Assembly: GCA_017627975.1 (NCBI GenBank)
Contig: JAGAFT010000229.1
Coordinates: 1 to 11,215 of the forward strand
Direction of reading: 5' to 3'
DNA from: Oscillospiraceae bacterium
GTDB lineage: Bacteria; Bacillota_A; Clostridia; Oscillospirales; Oscillospiraceae
Length of the DNA: 11,215 nt
Shown here: positions 1 through 11,024 of the stretch, piece by piece
Layout of the letters: each line of letters begins with the position of its first letter
How positions within the stretch are numbered: the first letter of the stretch is position 1
The notes under the pieces: generated by a model
What the model was told of the DNA's origin: nothing
Databases searched by the model: none
What the model saw: only the letters and a program-made list of their open reading frames with translations
Program-made: the position numbers and the translations under genes

Positions 1-1297
1 CAAAGCGGATGGGTCCCAGGCGCTCGGACTGCTTTTCGAGGGAGTTGCCCGTCACGACCGCTTCAAAGGTATAGGTTCCCTCCTCGATGCGCGACTTCAC
101 CTCGAAGCCGTTGTTTCCCACGTACATGGGCAGGCGCAGGACCTCGGTTTCGTTCCCGTCATACGCGACGAGGTCCGCCGCAAAGCCAAGATAAGCATCA
201 TAGTCGCCGGCCTCCACCTCCCCTGCCGAGAGGCGGGCGTTGAAGGTTACCGGCTCCAGCGGGTCGAGCTCGTCGCCCTCCCGGTTCATATACAGCGTAA
301 CCTTGAGATTGGTGTTGTAGATCACATCGATCCGGATGCGGTCGCCGGAGATTCCACGAGTCTGCAGGGACCATTTACCGGGGATGATGTCCATGAGCTT
401 GATCGCCGTGAAGGTCTCGTACTGCTGCAGATCCGCCTCATACGGGTTTCCGTCGGGCGTCCGAAGACTGGCCTCCGTTGCGTTTCCCTGAATCACGACA
501 TTGACCTCTTCGACGCCGAAGCCCGGCACCTCAAACGGGGTGTCCAGCACGCCCTCCGGCGGGAACACGCCGTCCGTCAGCGTGACGGTGGAGCTTCGGT
601 AGATCAGCTCGTAAAAGACCTCGAACACCCGGTTCAGGTCCTCGGCTCTGCGCACCTCGGTGAAGACGCCGCCGGTCTCGCCGGAAATGCGCTCCATCTC
701 CGAGCTGTCGGCCGTGCCGTTGCCGTTGAGGCATATGCTGTAGATGGGGACCTCGGCTTCCGCGGCCCGCCGGATCGCCTCGTCCCGCACCTCGGCCGCC
801 TCTTTGGTCATGGCGTCGGTGTACATGGCGGTGTTTCCGTCACTGAGCAGGATGATCACCGAAGGAATCTCCGGATTTCCCTTCTCCTCCAGGCGGTCCA
901 GCGCGGTGTCAAGCCCCGCGCCGATGTTGGTCCAGCCGCCCGGCGTCGGTACATTCCGAAGCGTCTGGACAACGACGTCCTTTTCCGACGGTCCGGTCAC
1001 CGGCTGCGGGCCGATCTCCCGGTCGACACCGGTGGAGAAGACGACGCCGCCGAGGGAGTTTCCCTCATTCGGCAGCAGGTTATTGAAGAGGCGGATCGCC
1101 TCATAGCGGTAGCCGCGGGCATCGGACTCGTTCATCGAAACGCTTGCATCCAGGACCAGCTCCACGTTAAAGCGGTTTGCCGTCTCCGACGGGAGCGGCC
1201 CGGTCGGCAGTGCCGGCGCCTCCGCGGCCGCGCACAGCGGCAGCAGCAGCGTCAGGATCAGAAGCAGCACCGGCAGCGCGCTAAGTCTTTTTCTCAT
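1..1297 (-). CDS. Secreted VWA-domain protein (3' end outside window)
   Basis: The minus-strand frame is open from the ATG at 1297-1295 to the window edge, giving 432 residues with no stop, so the C-terminus is missing. Residues 1-25 form a Sec signal peptide: MRKR, then a leucine-rich core, then a CAAAEA cleavage region. The cysteine there sits in LPLC, which is a poor lipobox, so secretion is more likely than lipidation. A VWA domain follows (about residues 43-220) with a complete-looking MIDAS: DASVS at 50-54, the threonine of GGWTNIG and the aspartate of LLSDGNT. Such domains bind a divalent metal and a protein partner outside the cell. The remaining 200 residues look like beta-rich, Ig-like repeats (LEPVTFNARLSAG, GTYTFEAVVTGNSL) and resemble no enzyme I know. 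The start is supported by AAAGGAGG seven bases upstream and by an extended -10 promoter. It is transcribed divergently from the signalling genes and its role is unknown; adhesion or surface assembly are possibilities. Confidence 0.85.
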   Translation of the reverse strand, partial: MRKRLSALPVLLLILTLLLPLCAAAEAPALPTGPLPSETANRFNVELVLDASVSMNESDARGYRYEAIRLFNNLLPNEGNSLGGVVFSTGVDREIGPQPVTGPSEKDVVVQTLRNVPTPGGWTNIGAGLDTALDRLEEKGNPEIPSVIILLSDGNTAMYTDAMTKEAAEVRDEAIRRAAEAEVPIYSICLNGNGTADSSEMERISGETGGVFTEVRRAEDLNRVFEVFYELIYRSSTVTLTDGVFPPEGVLDTPFEVPGFGVEEVNVVIQGNATEASLRTPDGNPYEADLQQYETFTAIKLMDIIPGKWSLQTRGISGDRIRIDVIYNTNLKVTLYMNREGDELDPLEPVTFNARLSAGEVEAGDYDAYLGFAADLVAYDGNETEVLRLPMYVGNNGFEVKSRIEEGTYTFEAVVTGNSLEKQSERLGPIRF

Positions 1298-1470: not shown

Positions 1471-2994
1471 ATGAACAACGACAGAACCCTGCAAAAGCAC
1501 CTGTCGCCGGCGGGTGCATGGGCCTTTGCCATCGGCACCGCCATCGGCTGGGGCTCGCTGGTGGTGACCGCCAACACCTATCTTGCCCAGTCCGGCCCCA
1601 TGGGCAGCGTCCTGGGTCTGGTGCTCGGCGCGCTGATCATGGCGGTGATCGCGGTGAACTACGCCTATCTGATGCGGGCCTTCCCGGAGGCGGGGGGCGC
1701 CTATGCGTACACGCGGGAGGCCTTCGGCTACGACTTTGCCTTCCTGACGGCCTGGTTCCTCGCGATGACGTATCTTGCGGTCCTTTGGGCCAATGTCACG
1801 TCGCTGCCCCTGTACGGGCGGATCTTCATGGGCGGTCTGTTCCGTGTCGGGAAGCTCTATACCATCTTCGGGTATGACGTTTACCTGGGCGAGGTGCTGC
1901 TGTCCATGGCGGCGCTGCTTGTGACGGGCTACCTCTGCATCCGGCATGAGAAGCTTGTCGATGTCCTCATGATCGCCCTTGCCATCCTCTTCACGGCCGG
2001 AATCGCGGTCTGCTTCATCGGGGGCTTCGCCGGCGGCGGCCGTGAGCTGAAGCCGCTCTATCTCCCGGACAGCTCGGAGCTGTCACAGATTGTGCAAATC
2101 GCCGTCATCTCGCCCTGGGCCTTCATCGGCTTTGAGAGCATCTCCCACGGCGTGGAGGAATTCCGCTTTGACCACCGGCGGATCCGGCGGCTGATGCATG
2201 TGGTCGTGGTGATGACGCTGGCGCTCTACGTGATGGTGACGCTTCTGTCGGTGACGGCGTATCCCGAGCGGTACGACAGCTGGCTCTCGTACATCCGGGA
2301 CCTGAACAACCTCGAGGGCCTTGAGGCTCTGCCGGCCTTCTATGCCGCAAACCGCTACCTCGGCGGCTTCGGCGTATGGGCGCTGATGCTGTCGCTGCTG
2401 GGTCTGGTCATCACAAGCCTCATCGGAAACACCTTTGCCCTGAGCCGCCTGTTCTTCGCGCTGGGCCGGGACAAGGTCCTTCCGAAAAAGCTTGCCGAGC
2501 TCAACGACCGGAATGTTCCGGCCAATGCCGTGGCCCTGGTCATCGCCGTCTCGTTTCTGATCCCGCTGATCGGAAGAACCGCCATCGGATGGATCGTGGG
2601 ACGTCACAACCATCGGCGCCACGCTGATCTACGCCCTGGTCTCCGCCGCCGCGGCGAAGCTGGCCAAACAGGACGGGAACCGGGCGATTCGCTTTGCGGG
2701 AACACTCGGCCTCGGTCTCATGCTCGCCTTTGGCGCGTACATTCTGCTTCCCAACCTTCTGCTCAGAAGCTCCATGGCGCGCGAGACCTACTTCCTGTTC
2801 ATCGCGTGGAGCGTGCTGGGCTTCCTGTTCTTCCGCTACATTCTCCGGATCGATACGGAAAAGCGCTTCGGCAACTCCCTCATCGTCTGGGTGGCGCTGC
2901 AGGGCCTGGTGCTGTTCGTGTCCCTGATCTGGATGCGCCAGTCCATGATCGTCTCCAACGACACCTTGCTGGACAACATCCACACCTACTATGA
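1471..2994 (+). CDS. APC-type amino-acid permease module, N-terminal part of a frameshifted sensor fusion
   Basis: The start ATG at 1471 follows CGGAGGT by about seven bases; the frame is open further upstream, but that part precedes the promoter. Residues 1-376 are an APC-superfamily permease: hydrophobic helices at about 12-33, 43-68, 83-112, 138-185 (two), 203-226, 240-264, 300-330 and 350-366. The glycine-rich GTAIGWGS in helix 1 is the usual substrate-binding break of APC transporters, and FPEAGGAYAYTREAFG is a strong family signature. After V376 the frame turns into arginine-rich, non-membrane sequence and ends at 2994. The true continuation (DVTTIGATLIYALVSAAAA) lies in the next frame from 2600, so this entry is genuine only to about 2598. 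With the extra G removed, the permease gains helices at about 376-395, 408-430, 438-457, 468-488 and 537-555, some 14 in all, placing the signalling domains in the cytoplasm. The substrate is not readable; amino acid or polyamine is likely. The protein may act as a receptor rather than a pump. Confidence 0.85.
   Translation: MNNDRTLQKHLSPAGAWAFAIGTAIGWGSLVVTANTYLAQSGPMGSVLGLVLGALIMAVIAVNYAYLMRAFPEAGGAYAYTREAFGYDFAFLTAWFLAMTYLAVLWANVTSLPLYGRIFMGGLFRVGKLYTIFGYDVYLGEVLLSMAALLVTGYLCIRHEKLVDVLMIALAILFTAGIAVCFIGGFAGGGRELKPLYLPDSSELSQIVQIAVISPWAFIGFESISHGVEEFRFDHRRIRRLMHVVVVMTLALYVMVTLLSVTAYPERYDSWLSYIRDLNNLEGLEALPAFYAANRYLGGFGVWALMLSLLGLVITSLIGNTFALSRLFFALGRDKVLPKKLAELNDRNVPANAVALVIAVSFLIPLIGRTAIGWIVGRHNHRRHADLRPGLRRRGEAGQTGREPGDSLCGNTRPRSHARLWRVHSASQPSAQKLHGARDLLPVHRVERAGLPVLPLHSPDRYGKALRQLPHRLGGAAGPGAVRVPDLDAPVHDRLQRHLAGQHPHLL
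2598..2600 (+). other. Single-base frameshift site (extra G)
   Basis: The run GGG at 2598-2600 separates two frames of one protein. Reading ATC GTG, skipping one G, then GAC GTC ACA ACC gives W-I-V-D-V-T-T, a natural APC helix boundary. Without the skip the product becomes arginine-rich. The receiving frame has a stop at 2558-2560, so the shift must lie after 2560. No slippery heptamer or downstream pseudoknot is evident, so an inactivating insertion or a sequencing error is more likely than programmed frameshifting. Confidence 0.88.
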
Positions 2995-5815
2995 AGAGCA
3001 CGACGACCTGGACGGGCAGAGAACCGAAGATGAGCGCTATGTGGAGCTGCAGCTGGAGTCGGCCAAGGAAGAGGATGCCCGCACGATGGTGATCGCGGTC
3101 GGAATGGTCAGCTTCACCCTGTTCATCATGCTGAACAACCACTTCTATATGAACCGGCGGGCCAAAGAGAGCGATCACCTTGCGAATATCGACCCCATGA
3201 CCGGTGTCAAGAGCAAGCTTGCCTTCCTCAACAGCGAGAAAAAATTTGACGAGGCCATCGCGGACGGCACCGTGGAGAAATTCGCCGTGGCGGTCTGCGA
3301 TGTCAACGGCCTGAAAAAGATCAACGATACCCTCGGCCACAAGGCCGGCGATGAATATATCCGCAGCGCTAGCAGACTGGTCTGCGATATCTTCCAGCAC
3401 AGCCCGGTATTCCGGGTGGGCGGAGACGAGTTTGTGGTGATTCTCACTGGGAGAGACTATCTCATCCGCAAAGAGCTGCTTCTGACCCTCCATGACCGCT
3501 CGGTGGCGAACATCAGCAAGGAGGGCGCCGTGGTGGTCTCGGGCGGGTTCTCCTCCTACAAGCCCGGGGAAGACCGCAGCTTCCATGAGGTCTTCGAGCG
3601 GGCGGACACGCTCATGTATGAGGAAAAGCAGCTTCTGAAGGGGCTGGGCTCGGTCACCAGGGATGACAGCGAAGCCGAAGCGCATCCGGCGGTCCCGCTG
3701 AAGCAGGACGGCGCGGACGTGCTGTCGCTGAGCCGGCATGTGCTGATCGTGGAGGACGAAGTGCCCAACCAGATGATGCTTGGCATGATGCTGGAAGCGG
3801 AGGGGTATGAGCTTCTCTATGCCGACGACGGCGTGGAGGCGCTGGAACAGCTCAAGCTGCACCATGACGACCTGGCCATCGTTCTTCTGGATCTGCAGAT
3901 GCCCAAGATGACCGGCATGGACGTCCTTCGGGTCATGAAGGAGGAGGAAGAGTTCCGGAAGATTCCGGTCATTATCCTCACGGCGGACCAGAGCGCGGAG
4001 GTGGAATGCCTCAAGATCGGCGCCATGGACTTCATCCCCAAGCCCTATCCGAGTCCGGAGATCGTCCAGGCGAGGGTGCGGCGCTGCATCGACCTTGCCG
4101 AGAAGCAGGACATCATCCAGTCCACCGAGCGCGACAGCCTGACAAGGCTCTACAACGTGGACTACTTCATGAACTATGTCCGGATGTACGACCAGCATTA
4201 CGCCGACATGCCCATGGACGCCATGGTGATCGACGTGAACAGTTTCCACATGATCAACGAGCGCTTCGGCCGGCAGCAGGGCGACCGGGTGCTCAGCCGC
4301 CTGGGAGAGCAGATCCGCCTCATTGCCCGCGAGATCGGAGGCGTCGCCTGCCGCCGGGGCGCGGACACCTTCCTCATCTACTGCCCGCACAGGGAGGACT
4401 ATGAGGAACTTCTCAAGAAGGCATCCGGCGGCCTGACGGGAGACGAGGCGACCGCCAACCGGGTAAGACTTCGCATGGGCGTATACGCCCAGGTGGACAA
4501 GAGCCTGGAGGTCGACCGCCGCTTTGACTATGCAAAGACCGCGGCGAATACCATCAAGAACGGCTACCTGAAGACGGTCGGCGTGTATAACCAGCAGATG
4601 CACGACGCGGAGCTGTACCGCGCGCGTCTCCTGGAGGACTTCCGCCCCGCGCTGCGGGCGCGCTGCTTTACGGTGTTTGTCCAGCCCAAGTTCAATGTCC
4701 GCGCAGGCAAGCCGGTCCTCACCGGAGCCGAGGCGCTGGTGCGGTGGAAGCATCCGGAGCTCGGCATGATCAGCCCGGGGGTGTTCATTCCGCTTCTGGA
4801 GGACAACGGCCTGATTCCGGAGCTGGACCGCTACGTCTGGAGAGAGGCCGCCGAAAGGATCCGGGACTGGAAGAAGCGCTTCGGCTTCTGTGTGCCGGTG
4901 TCGGTGAACGTCTCGCGGATCGACATGCTGACCCCCGACCTCAAGGAGGTCTTCGCGGAGATTCTTTCCTCCTGCGGCCTGCAGCCGGAGGATCTCATCC
5001 TGGAGGTAACGGAGTCGGCCTATACGGGAGACTCGGAGCAGATTCTTTCCACCGCACAGGAACTCCGGGATATGGGCCTGCGCATTGAGATGGACGACTT
5101 CGGAACGGGATATTCCTCTCTCGGCATGATGTCCAATCTTCCGCTGGACGCGCTGAAGCTGGACATGAGCTTTGTCCGCAACGCCTTCGGCGAAGCGAAG
5201 GACCTGCGGATGATCGAGCTGATCATCGACATTGCGGACTATCTCGGCGTCCCCGTGGTGGCCGAGGGGGTGGAGACCGAGGAACAGTACCTGGCGCTCA
5301 AGGCGCTGGGCTGCGACGTGATCCAGGGGTACTACTTCTCCAAGCCGGTGCCGCCTGAAGAGTTTGACCGCTTCCTCGCGGAGCTGGAGACGCCGCCGGT
5401 TCCGGTGGTGCCGGAATACCGCCAGTCTTACATCAGCATCTCCAAGGCTCTGGCCGGAGACTTTGAGCGCATGTTCTACATCGACACCCGGTCCGGCCGG
5501 TTCCTGGAGTTCCGGGCCGAGGGCGAGCACGAGCTCGAAATCCTTCCGGGCGGGGCGGACTTCTTCGATGAGCCGGAGAAACTTCTTCCCGGCGCGGTGT
5601 GTGAGGAGGATCGCCCCCGCGTAGGAGCCGCCCTTCGCAGGGAGAGCCTGGCAAAGTGGGCGGAGACGGACGAGCCGCAGGCCGTAAGATTCCGGCGCGC
5701 GGACGACGAAGCCCGGAAGGTCCGCATTCTCCAGACGGTTCGGACCCGAAACCGGGACGACCGTCACCTTGTCATCGGCGTGAGGCCGGACCCGGATTCT
5801 TCGGGATCGCTGTAA
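2720..5815 (+). CDS. GGDEF-REC-GGDEF(degenerate)-EAL-PAS-like c-di-GMP protein, C-terminal part of the frameshifted sensor fusion
   Basis: 2720 is only the first ATG after the frameshift; it has no ribosome binding site, and the frame really continues the permease from 2600. Numbering from 2720: the last permease helices and an extracytoplasmic loop of about 45 residues with one final helix (1-145). Next is a GGDEF domain (155-310) with intact GGDEF at 234-238 and DVNGLKKIND substrate residues; the upstream RxxD inhibitory site is absent (FQHS). A receiver (340-460) has phospho-acceptor D391, acidic VEDE, LTA and KP. A second GGDEF-like domain (470-630) has RGADT at 546-550 and is presumably catalytically dead. 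The EAL phosphodiesterase (632-885) has E671 of EAL, N730, E762, D792-D793 of DDFGTG, K813, E849 and Q869, so it looks active. The 130-residue tail (900-1031) is PAS-like. The protein should both make and break c-di-GMP at the membrane, with the receiver and transporter as inputs. The stop is followed 61 bases later by the kinase gene without a terminator. Confidence 0.9.
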   Translation: MLAFGAYILLPNLLLRSSMARETYFLFIAWSVLGFLFFRYILRIDTEKRFGNSLIVWVALQGLVLFVSLIWMRQSMIVSNDTLLDNIHTYYEEHDDLDGQRTEDERYVELQLESAKEEDARTMVIAVGMVSFTLFIMLNNHFYMNRRAKESDHLANIDPMTGVKSKLAFLNSEKKFDEAIADGTVEKFAVAVCDVNGLKKINDTLGHKAGDEYIRSASRLVCDIFQHSPVFRVGGDEFVVILTGRDYLIRKELLLTLHDRSVANISKEGAVVVSGGFSSYKPGEDRSFHEVFERADTLMYEEKQLLKGLGSVTRDDSEAEAHPAVPLKQDGADVLSLSRHVLIVEDEVPNQMMLGMMLEAEGYELLYADDGVEALEQLKLHHDDLAIVLLDLQMPKMTGMDVLRVMKEEEEFRKIPVIILTADQSAEVECLKIGAMDFIPKPYPSPEIVQARVRRCIDLAEKQDIIQSTERDSLTRLYNVDYFMNYVRMYDQHYADMPMDAMVIDVNSFHMINERFGRQQGDRVLSRLGEQIRLIAREIGGVACRRGADTFLIYCPHREDYEELLKKASGGLTGDEATANRVRLRMGVYAQVDKSLEVDRRFDYAKTAANTIKNGYLKTVGVYNQQMHDAELYRARLLEDFRPALRARCFTVFVQPKFNVRAGKPVLTGAEALVRWKHPELGMISPGVFIPLLEDNGLIPELDRYVWREAAERIRDWKKRFGFCVPVSVNVSRIDMLTPDLKEVFAEILSSCGLQPEDLILEVTESAYTGDSEQILSTAQELRDMGLRIEMDDFGTGYSSLGMMSNLPLDALKLDMSFVRNAFGEAKDLRMIELIIDIADYLGVPVVAEGVETEEQYLALKALGCDVIQGYYFSKPVPPEEFDRFLAELETPPVPVVPEYRQSYISISKALAGDFERMFYIDTRSGRFLEFRAEGEHELEILPGGADFFDEPEKLLPGAVCEEDRPRVGAALRRESLAKWAETDEPQAVRFRRADDEARKVRILQTVRTRNRDDRHLVIGVRPDPDSSGSL

Positions 5816-5876: not shown

Positions 5877-8417
5877 ATGAAAAAGAGTCTCGTTATCATC
5901 GGCAACGTGATCATAATCGCCGCCATCCTGATCTTCGTTGTCCTCTACTCCAGCTTTGAAAATGCCGATTCATACCGGAGGCAGGTAGAGCACTTTGAAA
6001 ACACCATGGTGACCATGGAGAGCGTGACGGAGAATTATCTGGAGGGCGAACAGCAGATCTGCGACGTCTGGGCGCACTTCATCAACAGCCAGAACATGAC
6101 CATGGAGGAGGCGGCCGCGTTTATTCGGGCCTCCCATGTGCTCCCCAACGCCTCGGCACATCTGATTTCCCTCGACACCCTCACGGGCCTCTCCACACGC
6201 CCGAAACTGGGTTCGACGGACGACTATGCCGTTTCCTACCAGCAGATCTCTCTCCTGCAGAATGTGGGCTGGATCGATGAAATCGGGACGTCCATCAACA
6301 TCACCCGCGCCTACACCAATCCGATGAACGGCGAGCAATCCCTGGCTTTCTGCAACAGTGTAAGGCTGTATAAGCCGGAACGCGATACGTTCGAGACGGC
6401 GGTACTGCTGCGCGTCATTCCGATCTCGGTGCTGGAGCAGAAATGGGTTTTTCCGCAGGCCGAGCTGGTGAACGCCGAGCTGTCCATGATCGATGCCAAC
6501 GGTAATTATATTCTGAAAGGATACAGCTTTAAGAACGCCAGTTTTTTTGAGTTCTACAAATCCTATAATCCGACGGATCCCGAATCGTCGGGCAAGCTGT
6601 TCGACAGGATTACGTCCTCGACCGGCTCCGCAGAAATGATCAACTCGCACGGGCAGGAATGCGTCCTTGCCTTTACCCCGATCTCGGCCACCGCCGGGTG
6701 GACCCTGCTGGGCCTCGTGCCGGCGAAGGATCTCCATGCGGACGCGGAAAACTGGATGCTGGTGGGCGTCGTCTCGGTCGGTCTTCTGATCCTTTTCCTG
6801 CTTGACCTGTACTATATGCTTTACCTGAACCGGCGATATCAGGCCGCCGCACGGGAGGCGGAATCCGCAAGCAAGGCAAAGACCGATTTTCTCTCCACCA
6901 TGTCGCACGACATCCGCACGCCCATGAACGCCATCGTGGGCCTTACGACCATTGTCGAGAAGAATCTCGGCGATGTGGAGTCAACGCGGGAGAGCCTTCG
7001 GAAAATCAGCCTTGCCAGCAATCATCTGCTGACCCTGATCAATGACATCCTGGATATCTCGAAGGTGGAAAGCGGAAAACTGAAGCTGAGTCCGCTGACC
7101 TTCTCCATTGTGGAAACGGTTGAGAACCTCGTCAACATCTCACTGCCGATGATCAAGGAAAAGAATATTGATTTCAGCTTCCACATCAATCAGATGGAAA
7201 AGGAGTATCTGTATACCGACCAGCTCCGTCTGAATCAGATTTATATCAACATCCTCTCCAACGCCCTCAAGTATACGGAACCCGGCGGGCGTGTCACGGT
7301 CGATCTGCGCGAGGAAAAGAGCGCGAACCCCGGCTGTGTGCGGGTGAGCTATACGGTAGCGGATACGGGCATCGGCATGAGCCCGGAATTCATGGCGACC
7401 ATGTATCAGCCCTTCTCGCGTCAGATCGACAGCCGTGTCAACAGCATTCAGGGGACCGGCCTTGGCCTCGCGATTACCAAGCAGATGGTCGATCTGCTCG
7501 GCGGCACGATCGACTGCCAGAGCGAGCAGGGCAAGGGAACGACCTTCACCGTCGTCCTCGATATCCCCGTCGCCGACAGACAGCGGGACGACATGACGCT
7601 TGATCCCATCGACGTGCTGATCGTTGACGACGACGAGATCCTTCTTCAGACGGCAGCCGAAACCCTGGAGTCACTCGGCGCCTCGGTGGAGAAGACGCAA
7701 AGCGGCCTGGAGGCGCTCGGCATGGTCAGGCAAAGGCATCTTTCCGGGCGGGATTACGGCGTCGTCATTGTGGACTGGAAAATGCCGGAAACAGACGGTG
7801 TTGAGACAATCCGCCGGATCCGCGCGGAGGTGGACGAGAATATTCCGATCCTGCTGATCTCCGCCTATGACTGGTCGGACATTGAGGACCGGGCGAAAGA
7901 GGCGGGCGCGAACGGGTTTGTCAGCAAACCGCTTTTCCGCTCCACGCTCTATGACAAGATCAACGATCTGATCGGGAAAGAGTCCAAATCTCAGGAGCCG
8001 GAGGACAATTATTCCGACCTGCAGGGCCTGCACATTCTGGTGGCCGAGGACAACGACATCAACTGGGAAATCATATCCGCCCTGCTTTCCATGTTCGGGA
8101 TCACCACCGACCGGGCAGAAAACGGACGAATCTGCGTGGATATGATGCGCACGGCGGCGGAGGGCAGCTATGAGCTGATCTTCATGGATATCCAGATGCC
8201 GGAAATGAACGGACTTGACGCAACCCGGGCAATCCGGAGCCTGGAGAATCCCTGGGCGGCCTCCATCCCGATTGTTGCGATGACGGCAGACGCGTTCTCC
8301 GAAAACGTCACGGAATGCCTGGAAGCCGGAATGAACGGGCATATTGCAAAACCCGTGGATATCAAGCTGGTGATCAAGGAGATCCGAAGAATCAAGGAGG
8401 GAAAGGGACAGTTATGA
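5877..8417 (+). CDS. Hybrid sensor histidine kinase (Cache-like sensor, HisKA-HATPase-REC-REC)
   Basis: 846 residues. Helix 1 (about 5-25) and helix 2 (294-314) flank a 265-residue extracytoplasmic sensor. Its membrane-proximal half has the LSMIDANGNYILKG strand-turn typical of double-Cache domains. The cytoplasmic part follows directly without a HAMP: HisKA with the phosphorylated histidine H344 in STMSHDIRTPMN, then the HATPase with N462 (N-box), D496 in DTGIGM and GTGLGLAI (G526-G530). Receiver 1 (578-700) has D584-D586, acceptor D633 in VDWKMP, S662 and K684. Receiver 2 (718-840) has E724-D725, acceptor D771 in MDIQMP, T803 and K825. All catalytic residues are present. There is no Hpt and no output domain, so phosphate must pass to another protein; the receiver in the upstream c-di-GMP protein is the only candidate in the window. 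The last codons overlap the next gene (ATGA), so the lipoprotein is its probable ligand-binding partner. Confidence 0.95.
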   Translation: MKKSLVIIGNVIIIAAILIFVVLYSSFENADSYRRQVEHFENTMVTMESVTENYLEGEQQICDVWAHFINSQNMTMEEAAAFIRASHVLPNASAHLISLDTLTGLSTRPKLGSTDDYAVSYQQISLLQNVGWIDEIGTSINITRAYTNPMNGEQSLAFCNSVRLYKPERDTFETAVLLRVIPISVLEQKWVFPQAELVNAELSMIDANGNYILKGYSFKNASFFEFYKSYNPTDPESSGKLFDRITSSTGSAEMINSHGQECVLAFTPISATAGWTLLGLVPAKDLHADAENWMLVGVVSVGLLILFLLDLYYMLYLNRRYQAAAREAESASKAKTDFLSTMSHDIRTPMNAIVGLTTIVEKNLGDVESTRESLRKISLASNHLLTLINDILDISKVESGKLKLSPLTFSIVETVENLVNISLPMIKEKNIDFSFHINQMEKEYLYTDQLRLNQIYINILSNALKYTEPGGRVTVDLREEKSANPGCVRVSYTVADTGIGMSPEFMATMYQPFSRQIDSRVNSIQGTGLGLAITKQMVDLLGGTIDCQSEQGKGTTFTVVLDIPVADRQRDDMTLDPIDVLIVDDDEILLQTAAETLESLGASVEKTQSGLEALGMVRQRHLSGRDYGVVIVDWKMPETDGVETIRRIRAEVDENIPILLISAYDWSDIEDRAKEAGANGFVSKPLFRSTLYDKINDLIGKESKSQEPEDNYSDLQGLHILVAEDNDINWEIISALLSMFGITTDRAENGRICVDMMRTAAEGSYELIFMDIQMPEMNGLDATRAIRSLENPWAASIPIVAMTADAFSENVTECLEAGMNGHIAKPVDIKLVIKEIRRIKEGKGQL

Positions 8418-9709
8418 AAAAGGCGATGTGCATGTTTCTGGCAGTGCTGATGATCCTTGGCCTGGCCGGCTGCGGCCAGGAGAAGCAGGATGCGGAGACG
8501 GCGGAGGGGTTCCGGCCGGCTCTGGATCCCTCTGTCAGCTGCCATATCAGCGTTGCCGGCAGCTACAACAACTTTGAGGCCCTGGAAGCTGAATTTGACC
8601 GATTCAACGAGTATTATCCCAATGTGGAGCTGGTATTTACGAAGGTTGACGACTATAACAACATGGTCGGAATGGTCCTGAATGGAAACGACGCCCCGGA
8701 CATCTATGTCAATTACTCCTGGATGTACGGGAGGGCGCAGTATCAGGCCTCCATCGATCATGCCGAAAACCTGGCCGATCCCGCGCTGGGGCTTGATCTG
8801 GACTGCATCCGCAGCAATATTCTTCTGAATACGGACGACGGCACGCTTCCGATGGTCCCGGTTTTCTCAAACACCTACGGCATGCTTGTGAACAACAGTC
8901 TTTTTGAAAAAGAAGGCCTGCGCGTTCCCGCAAACTATCGGGAACTGGTGGAGGTGTGCGCCGCGTTTCGGGAAAAGGGCTATGAAAACCCGATGATGGG
9001 CTTTTGCCAAAATGAGCTCACCTCGCTTTTTACCCTGACGCTTTATCCGTTCTTCTGCGGAACCGTGGCGCAGGATGAAGAAGCCGTCAAAGAGCTCAAC
9101 GCGCTTGATCCATCGGCCGGCGCGTATATGCGGCCAGCTCTTGAGAAGCTCGTGCAGTTCCTGAACGACGGCTGCGTCGACCTCGAGCAATGCGCGGAGA
9201 TTGAAAACAACTATGAGGCCGTCATCCTTCGCTTCTTTGAAGGGGACGTGCCCATGATGATCTGTTCCGGAGACGCCGTCTCCGGAACAAAGAAGCGGGA
9301 AAGCCGTTCCGAGGCGTTTATCGCCAGCCCCTTTTCATACAGCTTTGCCCCGGTTCCCATGGCGGATGACGGTGCTTATTTCCTTGACATGCCGAATCTG
9401 CAGTTCTCTGTCAACAAAGACAGTGCAAACTTGGACATGGCCAACGAATTCATGCGTTTTCTCATCACGACGCGGGAGCTGAACGAGATGGCGCAGAACA
9501 AGGGCCTGATCTCGCCGACGAAAGACCTGTCTTTTGACAGCATGTACGCCGCGTTTGGGGCCGTCCCGGAATCCCGGGTCCTGTCGCCGGAAGTGTTCGG
9601 CCTGACGGATGACGCGGTCATCCAGCTGCGGCGGGCAGGTTACCTTGTCGGAATAGGCGCAATCACCATCGATGAAGCCGTCGCTGGCTACGGCACGTTT
9701 ACACCGTGA
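8414..9709 (+). CDS. Extracellular solute-binding lipoprotein, probable kinase partner
   Basis: 431 residues. The ATG at 8414 overlaps the kinase stop by four bases (ATGA) and is served by AAGGAGG at 8394-8400, inside the kinase gene. An upstream in-frame ATG at 8315 is rejected because the signal peptide begins at 8414. MKKAMCMFLAVLMILG is followed by lipobox LAGC with C20 as the lipidated cysteine, so the protein is anchored to the outer face of the membrane. The rest fits the family 1 extracellular solute-binding fold: an ordered FEALEAEFDRFNEYYPNVEL start, YNNMVGMVLNGNDAPDIYV, and a C-terminal segment (NKDSANLDMANEFMRFL) typical of sugar and oligopeptide binders of ABC importers. No permease or ATPase gene lies beside it. 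Overlap with a sensor kinase suggests it presents a ligand to the kinase rather than feeding a transporter. The ligand cannot be read from sequence. A perfect 12-bp inverted repeat lies within the gene (9263-9289). Confidence 0.93.
   Translation: MKKAMCMFLAVLMILGLAGCGQEKQDAETAEGFRPALDPSVSCHISVAGSYNNFEALEAEFDRFNEYYPNVELVFTKVDDYNNMVGMVLNGNDAPDIYVNYSWMYGRAQYQASIDHAENLADPALGLDLDCIRSNILLNTDDGTLPMVPVFSNTYGMLVNNSLFEKEGLRVPANYRELVEVCAAFREKGYENPMMGFCQNELTSLFTLTLYPFFCGTVAQDEEAVKELNALDPSAGAYMRPALEKLVQFLNDGCVDLEQCAEIENNYEAVILRFFEGDVPMMICSGDAVSGTKKRESRSEAFIASPFSYSFAPVPMADDGAYFLDMPNLQFSVNKDSANLDMANEFMRFLITTRELNEMAQNKGLISPTKDLSFDSMYAAFGAVPESRVLSPEVFGLTDDAVIQLRRAGYLVGIGAITIDEAVAGYGTFTP
9263..9289 (+). repeat. 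Perfect 12-bp inverted repeat inside the lipoprotein gene
   Basis: TGTTCCGGAGAC (9263-9274), spacer GCC, GTCTCCGGAACA (9278-9289). It encodes part of ICSGDAVSGTKK in the binding protein. There is no following T-run, so it is not an intrinsic terminator. It can form a strong mRNA hairpin or serve as a palindromic protein-binding site. Confidence 0.8.
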
Positions 9710-9766
9710 GCGCGCCGCAGCAATCCTTCAAAGCCCAGGCAGCCACGCCGAGATAAAACAGGAAAC

Positions 9767-9798
9767 AAAAACTCCCCGCCTATCGGCGGGGAGTTTTT
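9767..9798. terminator. Bidirectional intrinsic terminator between convergent genes
   Basis: AAAAACTCCCCGCC (9767-9780), loop TATC, GGCGGGGAGTTTTT (9785-9798): 14 perfect pairs, with a T-run after the GC stem in both directions. It lies 57 bases after the lipoprotein stop and 18 bases after the stop of the opposing diguanylate cyclase gene, so it should end both transcripts. Confidence 0.95.
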
Positions 9799-9816
9799 CA
9801 TCAGGGAGAAAAGGGA

Positions 9817-10971
9817 TCAGCGGCCGACCCCGAGGCGGGACTTGCGCTCGTAGAGCATCGCATCCGCCCGCCGGAGACATTCGCTCATCGGGACGGCCGG
9901 ATCCTTGCAGATCGCGTAGCCGACGGTCATGGCAAGCTGATAGGGCAGGTCCTTTGAGAGCTCGGCGAGGAGCTCCGTAAGATCCCGGATCAGCGCTTCC
10001 GGATCGGCCTTCCCGTCGGCGTCGGGCTGCCAGGTCATCAGGAATTCGTCTCCGCCATAGCGGGCCACGAAGCCGTTGTAGCGCCCGATGGTGCGCTTCA
10101 GGGCAAGACTGCAGCGGATCAGGGCATTGTCGCCCTCCACATGGCCGTAGGTATCGTTGATCTTCTTGAAGCCGTTGAGATCCCCGATATAGACGTAGAG
10201 GGGATTCTCATCAGAGACACGCGTCAGGCGTTCCGACAGATACTCATCCGCCTTGCGCCGGTTGTTCATTCCGGTCAGGGCGTCGGAGTTGATGCTTGAC
10301 TCCTGCATGAGGATGAAGATCACCACAATCACGGCGAAGACCGCGGCCGGCAGGATGGAGGCCTTGCTCATGAAGCCGTCCAGCACGATAAACAGGAGGA
10401 TCAGCAGCACCGAGGCGGAGAGCGCGGCATTGGACCGGCGCAGGAAGGTGGTGCGCGCCCGCATGGCGGTCACGGCACCCACGGCAGCCACGGCGAGAAG
10501 ATAGAGACTTGCAAGCACAAGGCACGGAAGATAAAGCCTCTCATGGACAAAATAGCCCGCCTGGTTCAGCGTAAACACAAGGCCGGTCCAGGGATTCAGG
10601 ATGATCAGCACGGTGGAGATGGCGGCCGGCAGCAGTCTGAGTATCCGTCCGGCCGGCGTCTGGAAGAACTTGACCGACTTTCGCTCCACCACGAAGAGGA
10701 AAAAGGAAGTAGCGCAGTTGATGATCGACCAGAGGCTCAGCGAACATACAACCATCAGGACCGCCCGCGGGAGCTCCAGCAGGTCGTATTCGTGCATGGT
10801 CCAGGCCGTGTTGCTCACGAGATAGACCATGTGCGTGACAATCAGCACACAGAACCAGGTATGCTCATCCTTTCTCGTGATATCCCGGCCGGTCTTTGAA
10901 AGGATGTAGATGTCCAGCAACAGAAACGTGGCCTGAAACATCCCGAACGCAAACAGAACGTCGTTGTCCAT
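9817..10971 (-). CDS. Membrane-bound diguanylate cyclase (GGDEF)
   Basis: 384 residues from the ATG at 10971-10969. I chose this start because GGGAGGT lies about eight bases upstream; the in-frame ATG at 10995 lies before that site and has none of its own. Residues 1-225 hold about seven hydrophobic helices (roughly 5-24, 38-56, 68-94, 110-128, 145-168, 183-199, 204-222) with short loops, a membrane sensor of unknown ligand. The GGDEF domain (226-380) has DALTGMNNRR, the metal/substrate aspartate D264 in GDLNGFKKIND, the signature GGDEF at 306-310 and the conserved RRADAMLYERK near the end. All points to an active enzyme making c-di-GMP from two GTP at the membrane. The inhibitory RxxD site reads RYNG (297-300), so product feedback is probably lost. 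It stands alone, convergent with the kinase/lipoprotein unit, and has its own promoter. Confidence 0.95.
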   Translation of the reverse strand: MDNDVLFAFGMFQATFLLLDIYILSKTGRDITRKDEHTWFCVLIVTHMVYLVSNTAWTMHEYDLLELPRAVLMVVCSLSLWSIINCATSFFLFVVERKSVKFFQTPAGRILRLLPAAISTVLIILNPWTGLVFTLNQAGYFVHERLYLPCLVLASLYLLAVAAVGAVTAMRARTTFLRRSNAALSASVLLILLFIVLDGFMSKASILPAAVFAVIVVIFILMQESSINSDALTGMNNRRKADEYLSERLTRVSDENPLYVYIGDLNGFKKINDTYGHVEGDNALIRCSLALKRTIGRYNGFVARYGGDEFLMTWQPDADGKADPEALIRDLTELLAELSKDLPYQLAMTVGYAICKDPAVPMSECLRRADAMLYERKSRLGVGR

Positions 10972-11024
10972 CTTGTTTTTACCTCCCTTCACCATACAAA
11001 GCGGGAGAAATGGTATATACAGTC

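Follow-up and report, generated by a model that had tools for sequence, protein, structure and literature searches.

An amino-acid transporter that some gut bacteria appear to have turned into a sensor wired to enzymes making and breaking c-di-GMP

What does an amino-acid permease do in the same polypeptide as the enzymes that make and break c-di-GMP? The question is raised by the window analysed here, a whole stretch of 11,215 nt from an Oscillospiraceae bacterium, in which one gene (the core gene below) joins the two. A sequence-only reading of this DNA had proposed that correcting one base gives a single 1447-codon frame, and that substrate occupancy of the permease, together with phosphorylation of the receiver (REC), would set the balance between cyclase and phosphodiesterase. 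The features of the window are given below, where GGDEF* denotes a degenerate GGDEF domain, P0001 is an intact relative of 1447 aa, and L008 is a relative whose structure was modelled (pLDDT 84.8, 41 sequences).

2-1285, minus strand: VWA-domain protein, divergently transcribed from the core gene, its start resembling a signal peptide
About 1458: Shine-Dalgarno-like GGAGGT, upstream of the permease start at 1471
1471..2595, plus strand: first part of the APC-type permease, to codon 375 (Pfam)
2596..2605, plus strand: frame break in the window copy, where the reading frame shifts; the flanking pieces are consecutive parts of P0001
2606..2833, plus strand: remainder of the 12-TM permease (alignment and L008 model, position mapped from P0001 numbering)
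2882..3184, plus strand: two-helix membrane hairpin, laid out as a helix through TM13, an extracellular turn, and a helix through TM14 continuing as the linker into GGDEF1 (L008 model helices 470-512 and 516-570 mapped to the window)
3182..3631, plus strand: GGDEF1, an active-looking diguanylate cyclase, motif at 3419-3433, without an RxxD I-site (Pfam and residue tallies)
3740..4072, plus strand: REC, phospho-acceptor Asp codon at 3890-3892 (Pfam, 81.9 bits)
4130..4561, plus strand: GGDEF2, degenerate, GADTF at 4358-4372 (Pfam, 63.5 bits when scanned alone)
4634..5347, plus strand: EAL domain, an active-looking phosphodiesterase, with its EAL motif at 4730-4738 (Pfam, 205 bits)
5438..5803, plus strand: C-terminal alpha/beta tail, a PAS-like candidate (model; absent from many relatives)
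5877..8417, plus strand: hybrid histidine kinase HisKA-HATPase-REC-REC downstream of the core gene, a candidate phosphodonor (Pfam)
8411..9709, plus strand: extracellular solute-binding protein whose gene overlaps that of the kinase, an association only (Pfam SBP_bac_8/1, from an upstream start at 8315)
9820-10995, minus strand: a separate GGDEF protein of the membrane, its gene convergent with that of the solute-binding protein

Above the Pfam cut-offs, permease families were matched in 1471-2595 and GGDEF, REC and EAL in 2606-5812. The permease matches (AA_permease, PF00324, 84.9 bits against a cut-off of 24.6; AA_permease_2, PF13520, 79.4 bits against 27) are to the APC superfamily, and only AA_permease families were matched, with no SLC5/SSS or Amt domain found by Pfam in the window protein. 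Searched apart, the two pieces of the gene matched residues 1-375 and 379-1447 of P0001, which represents a cluster of 89 sequences, with 93.9% identity over residues 1-375 and 93.5% over the 1069 open codons after the break. The single corrected frame is thus borne out, as is the proposed domain order (permease, GGDEF, REC, GGDEF*, EAL), which relatives carry in one frame. The frame break may leave the window copy inactive, a pseudogene in its own organism whilst the relatives alone work; we treat this as a serious possibility, if short of an even one. Against it, the codons after the break have stayed open and close to P0001, and the sporadic breaks seen in two relatives (below) suggest scattered errors or lesions of recent origin; in any case it concerns the window copy and not the family. 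Identity to P0001 across 1471-5812 is uneven (336/359 in residues 1-359, 515/521 in 379-899 and 485/548 in 900-1447), which strain-to-strain recombination or a chimeric reference would explain. A plasmid search with 2720-5812 gave zero matches.

To find relatives, the N-terminal 500 residues of the piece after the break served as the protein query; 2681 of 7997 scored candidates matched at E <= 0.001 and the best 120 of these were listed. By a motif test, 109 of the best 120 had permease, GGDEF and EAL, six lacked the EAL motif and five lacked the permease motif. Their lengths fell into two main classes, 66 of 1420-1475 aa and 44 of 1290-1330 aa, with 10 shorter; aligned members of the 1290-1330-aa class stop after the EAL, without the C-terminal tail. 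At the DNA level, 513 contig stretches encode relatives, and we kept the best 80 as loci. All 80 have a frame with the permease motif, GGDEF and EAL, and in 75 of them TM1, GGDEF and EAL lie in one open frame. Three of the remaining five (L064, L071, L078) begin at a contig edge, and two (L001, L069) are frame-broken about 92-94 codons in, at a different place from the window's break. Full-length homologues with the same domain order therefore exist in numbers: permease and GGDEF/EAL are not consistently separate genes, and the frameshift is not in all strains. The fusion is far beyond chance, and it is real. An assembly chimera of unrelated permease and GGDEF genes might be feared since the sources are mostly metagenome assemblies; with independent assemblies and the 3.86-Mb contig of a cultured isolate (Lachnospiraceae AC2029, L061) showing the same order, we give it practically no credence.

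Amongst these best 80 of 513 loci, 65 came from ruminant-type sources by a keyword test of titles. By NCBI rank, 69 are Bacillota, 8 Actinomycetota, 2 Chloroflexota and 1 Pseudomonadota; we do not claim the non-Bacillota phyla because metagenome bins can be wrong. The gene set of AC2029 holds one core type, one kinase type (L114; see below) and one stand-alone permease. A survey of 150 genomes from its family gave any permease match in 39 and 16 matches above 250 bits; 15 of the 16, in 10 genomes, are open frames of 955-1790 aa, the 1790-aa frame holding masked bases. In 398 genomes of the phylum, with up to four candidates scored per genome, seven matches exceeded 250 bits, in four genomes including AC2029 and all in frames of 815-1326 aa. 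As the matches are confined to few genomes, the fused permease is a minority trait in the sampled genomes.

To judge whether the enzymes could work, residues were tallied in 199 sequences, from 79 loci of the best 80 of 513 and the best 120 of 2681 proteins, two sets that partly overlap. The reading of the first GGDEF as active-looking, the REC and EAL as intact and the second GGDEF as degenerate agrees with these counts. In GGDEF1, GGDE is present in 199/199, with F or Y as the fifth residue, as are Asp610, Asn618, Asp619 and Asp627; the RxxD inhibitory site is absent, its positions being F/Y and S in 199/199. In the REC, the acceptor Asp and the Lys are each present in 199/199 and the acidic-pocket Asp762 in 197. 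GGDEF2 lacks Glu at the fourth, catalytic position in all 196 sequences with a letter there (Thr in 161); as Asp965 is retained in 195, GGDEF2 may serve as a GTP-binding regulatory domain. The EAL catalytic set comprises EAL, Asn, two Glu, DD, Lys, Glu and Gln. These residues are kept in 191-194 of the sequences covering each site; the exceptions are one Ser at E1181 and one Val at E1265. With the sites of GGDEF1 and EAL intact, both synthesis and breakdown of c-di-GMP are predicted. For the tail, the model gives strands, helices and strands compatible with the PAS-like fold proposed for it, but Pfam found no PAS profile even at E 5 in the tails of five relatives and that identity is unproven.

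The genes around the core gene were examined in 79 loci, of which 38 have flanks of >3 kb on both sides and many have short ones. Kinase domains lie within 5 kb in 22/79, at a density of 0.042 per kb, 2.5 times the 0.017 per kb found at 5-10 kb. Relatives of the window's kinase, 66-75% identical over ~843 aa, are near the core gene in 9/79 loci, before it, after it or on the opposite strand, and the window-type solute-binding protein in 4/79. An Hpt gene lies <=40 nt from the core gene in 8/79 loci, with a 4-nt stop overlap in five of the eight (Pfam for two); the other 71 and the window have none beside the core gene. In L036, L041, L042 and L043 the core gene is flanked by both the window-type kinase and Hpt, and L066 has another Hpt gene 2.6 kb away. 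The REC-GGDEF*-EAL part of the core protein has 45-49% identity over ~550 aa with a regulator that L009, L018 and L058 encode separately, in clusters shared with the kinase type; the comparison was limited to these three and we do not call it the closest. These regulators resemble the second half of the core protein, and their GGDEF likewise lacks the motif; they differ in being soluble and encoded by separate genes without a permease. The simplest reading of the sequences is that the one gene arose from an APC-GGDEF receptor joined to a REC-GGDEF*-EAL regulator, so that this half would derive from, or be sister to, a separate response regulator.

At L049:14307-17675, next to a core gene, lies a hybrid histidine kinase whose sensor is an SBP_bac_3 solute-binding domain, and L042:4609-7518 encodes SBP_bac_3-GGDEF-EAL. 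The MshEN domain type binds c-di-GMP. In L019, L053 and L059 a 583-604-aa protein is encoded downstream of the core gene, the one in L019 being a type II/IV secretion ATPase with MshEN.

The permease and its hairpin occur with four outputs: the core output (GGDEF-REC-GGDEF*-EAL), a hybrid kinase, GGDEF and PAS-GGDEF. The kinase type found near the core gene, of ~1107-1117 aa, has the same permease followed by HisKA-HATPase-REC-REC (Pfam for L009; same cluster in L018, L058 and L063). An APC-GGDEF protein is near the core gene in L009 and L001 and an APC-PAS-GGDEF protein in L004; in L009 three fusions stand in a row, kinase type at 7061-10381, core at 10425-14762 and GGDEF type at 14826-17078. 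A kinase-type query gave 1939 matches, the best 120 of which have permease and HisKA in the Pfam columns (both in 98/120 by a stricter motif test). A GGDEF-type query gave 1344; of the best 120, 110 carry motifs for both permease and GGDEF, many of these having PAS_4 as well, whilst the kinases P0283 and P0298, P0327 (PAS and HisKA) and the 500-aa P0303 are amongst the remaining 10. By Pfam content, P0283, P0298 and the L111 row are kinases. L115, an open frame of 1780 aa, has masked bases and was left out as evidence of architecture.

Two trees of the permease domain were made, both with SH-type support and midpoint roots. The FastTree tree has 135 domains, from 134 of 135 collected proteins (P0117, in which no permease domain was found, was left out) plus the window; P0343 was entered twice, and the L058 row (377 aa), counted as solo, is maybe cut short. 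A branch with support 100 separates all fused permeases, along with P0303, P0343 and the short L058 row, from the rest; the next row outside is the stand-alone L092. A quick IQ-TREE tree of 49 chosen rows under a mixture model gave the same fused/unfused split with support 99, P0303 nested inside. In it the kinase types branch first and the c-di-GMP types are nested (support 100), with the kinases P0283 and P0298 amongst PAS-GGDEF; this suggests an early kinase form with later changes of output. By the same sequence evidence, the window's fusion is one branch of a larger, putative receptor family. A pair of neighbouring APC fusions per genome, of ~815-848 aa, was also seen at L097:538-2967(-) and G179:C8; the one of this kind that was scanned had only HATPase_c after the permease and is perhaps a different kinase type.

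What the four outputs share is the hairpin. It can be aligned across the kinase, GGDEF, PAS-GGDEF and core types, and is missing in 11/11 stand-alone permeases sampled and in 3/3 permeases fused to iron-containing alcohol dehydrogenase; TM-like segments after TM12 were counted from hydropathy windows and the one L008 model. The sequence-only reading had a 14-helix permease: a membrane permease it is, but the long helices 470-512 and 516-570 of the model, and the sampled stand-alone relatives with no TM after TM12, favour a permease of 12 TM and APC fold followed by a two-helix hairpin. The 500-aa P0303 stops inside TM13, like a cut receptor. Pfam gave zero matches for 2930-3190 at E 5, and may hold no STAC model.

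The spacing through the hairpin and linker is strict in the core type. From Trp473 in TM13 to Tyr506 it is 33 in 199/199 core sequences, and from Met553 in TM14 to Asp574 in GGDEF1 it is 21 in 129/199 and 28 in 70/199, one heptad apart; the two linker lengths may reflect one event. In the kinase type, the length from TM14 to the His box is 34 in 100/102 measured (18 of the 120 listed were unmeasured). Counted from Asn556, where the core type has 18 and 25, 69 APC-GGDEF rows gave 25 in 46, 21 in 14, 35 in 3, 32 in 2, 29 in 2, and 23 and 20 once each. The idea that every type follows a perfect heptad ladder was rejected: it holds in the core type (199/199) and fails in APC-GGDEF, where an 18+7n series fits 48/69 rows, 14 having 21, 3 having 35 and 4 other values. 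Judged from these spacings, the core type has a fixed helix with one heptad step and APC-GGDEF is looser.

Does the permease domain sense, carry or merely hold the protein in the membrane? When folded with a structure predictor, L008 gave a LeuT/APC fold of 12 TM (target TM-scores 0.83 to AdiC 3l1l and 0.76 to GkApcT 6f34); its PDB matches were AdiC, GkApcT, SLC7 transporters (LAT) and the WspR GGDEF, and a search of viral structures found only general APC and GGDEF folds. AdiC, GkApcT and SLC7 proteins thus resemble the domain in fold and sequence but stand alone, without a hairpin or signalling domain. The permease core is well conserved, with the unwound-helix motifs of the APC fold and invariant residues in TM1, TM3 and TM6. 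TM6 has Glu in 112/112 fused permeases against Asp in 14/14 others, and His in 106/112 against Gln in 14/14; Trp215 is present in 112/112 fused permeases, the others having Phe (9) or Trp (5), and a Trp-Ala-Asn in TM3 is found in nearly all fused permeases. A TM1 GWG motif was rejected as a mark of receptors, its Trp also being present in 12/14 non-receptor permeases. In TM5, GkApcT has Lys191 (K158 in ApcT), which we take to be the proton-coupling residue. Nearly all rows of the window family have a hydrophobic residue at this position instead, and Lys is absent from 126/126 aligned rows, fused and unfused, whilst present in the GkApcT row. We rejected this absence as proof of lost transport because stand-alone relatives lack the Lys too.

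The conserved core, the unwound-helix motifs and the fold match to working transporters would also suit a working transporter whose attached enzymes report or regulate uptake, with c-di-GMP or phosphorylation controlling transport. A precedent is CbrA, the nearest type to have been characterised, where excerpts of PMC7096432 describe an SLC5 domain that transports histidine and a kinase uninfluenced by histidine. We nevertheless find a transporter unlikely: hairpin and linker are a shared addition, and outputs have been swapped freely between kinase, GGDEF and PAS-GGDEF, which fits a sensor; the absent TM5 Lys points the same way but is not decisive, given the stand-alone relatives. Less likely again is a permease that is a mere membrane anchor, the true inputs being REC phosphorylation and cytoplasmic or tail domains. 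The REC intact in every sequence tallied and the Hpt and kinase neighbours suit such an anchor, as does CbrA still signalling without its SLC5 domain (PMC7096432, in the excerpts available). It is hard to explain, however, why an anchor would keep 12 TM and invariant TM1, TM3 and TM6 residues across four output types, three of which (GGDEF, PAS-GGDEF and kinase) have no REC directly after GGDEF1.

The probable reading, in our judgement, is that of an APC-fold receptor which drives the cyclase by ligand and the phosphodiesterase, probably, by phosphorylation. The domains, the intact and lost catalytic residues, the shared module, the single group of fused permeases and the neighbour genes are computed observations, and the receptor idea draws support from four of their aspects: one fused-permease group, a shared hairpin, swappable outputs and kinase and Hpt neighbours. 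Against it weigh the looser spacing of APC-GGDEF, the chance that the two core linker lengths go back to one event, the lack of an adjacent Hpt in 71/79 loci and in the window, a kinase within 5 kb in just 22/79 loci, the frame break of the window copy, and CbrA, which signals even when its transporter domain is removed. In the proposed mechanism, the permease domain would bind an extracellular solute as a sensor, with or without transport. The hairpin after TM12, probably paired in a dimer, would relay the movement down the fixed-length helix into GGDEF1, whose synthesis of c-di-GMP would presumably rise or fall with it. A nearby hybrid kinase may then act through Hpt to phosphorylate the REC and tune c-di-GMP breakdown. 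Histidine kinase, GGDEF and PAS-GGDEF outputs would likewise have been attached to this permease-hairpin module.

Fusions of transporters to signalling domains are known (SLC5-STAC, Amt-kinase). No description of an APC permease joined to a kinase, GGDEF or EAL was found in open-licence full texts, subscription papers being outside the scope, whilst database records give the fusions names such as 'amino acid permease' and 'signal transduction histidine kinase/L-asparagine transporter-like permease'. The fusion is not a one-off, being one branch of a larger family. Amongst permeases of its own superfamily, Ssy1 of yeast is a sensor, a signalling amino-acid permease. To our knowledge Gap1 and Ssy1 act via separate partner proteins in eukaryotes, and we know of no GGDEF, EAL or kinase fused to them. 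The yeast transceptor Gap1 is similar in being an APC-superfamily amino-acid permease that signals (PMC3166329, in part). SLC5-STAC proteins such as CbrA and CrbS likewise have a LeuT-fold transporter domain and signalling domains in one chain (excerpts of PMC7096432 and PMC13022988), these being histidine kinase or diguanylate cyclase domains according to PMC7096432; a 2026 preprint on the CbrA structure, as far as its available text goes, calls such transceptors rare (PMC13022988). Theirs is an SLC5 (SSS) domain with a STAC linker (PMC7096432, PMC13022988, in part), whereas the window family has an APC domain with a two-helix membrane hairpin and adds REC-GGDEF*-EAL, with c-di-GMP synthesis and breakdown in one chain. 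The ammonium sensor kinase Ks-Amt5, an Amt domain joined to a HisKA kinase with transport lost, is another transporter domain recruited as a sensor, and differs in its Amt fold, its trimer and the lack of a hairpin and of a c-di-GMP output (PMC5764959, in part). An NRAMP-like transporter domain joined to a 5TMR receptor also places a transporter domain inside a receptor protein, with a different fold and receptor type (PMC11109136, in part).

If the receptor reading is right, the APC superfamily would join the few transporter folds known to serve bacteria as built-in receptors. One chain holding both a cyclase and a response-regulator phosphodiesterase would show how two opposite controls can combine, and hairpin-less stand-alone permeases set against hairpin receptors with four outputs form a natural experiment on how movement becomes signal. 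More tentatively, and with doubt outweighing belief, we put forward a joint reading in which APC permeases that gained a hairpin became an unrecognised family of plug-in sensors, for kinases first and then for c-di-GMP enzymes, mostly in gut (ruminant) Clostridia, and in which receptors from neighbouring genes (in L009, for example, one each of the kinase, cyclase and cyclase/phosphodiesterase types) associate by way of the hairpin into mixed arrays. Were such arrays to form, one solute would set phosphorelay and c-di-GMP together.

Most bacterial c-di-GMP enzymes lack a recognised input; a receptor built from a transporter would make it testable, because the ligand pocket is open to transporter methods. 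Neighbour genes suggested amine-like or betaine-like solutes as the ligand class, which we rejected as too weak to claim. The hint came from two places. The nearest stand-alone permease, L116:6468-7880, lies beside genes for an SSS symporter, ATP-grasp enzymes, kinase/nucleotidyltransferase proteins and a BCCT transporter, and in three genomes related hairpin-less permeases are joined to iron-containing alcohol dehydrogenase (L107:233-2929(-), by Pfam; L109 and L110, assigned from the resemblance of their ends). At L120:7029-12391(-), three related stand-alone permeases stand in a row near aminotransferase- and alanine dehydrogenase-like genes, as judged by eye from the sequence starts.
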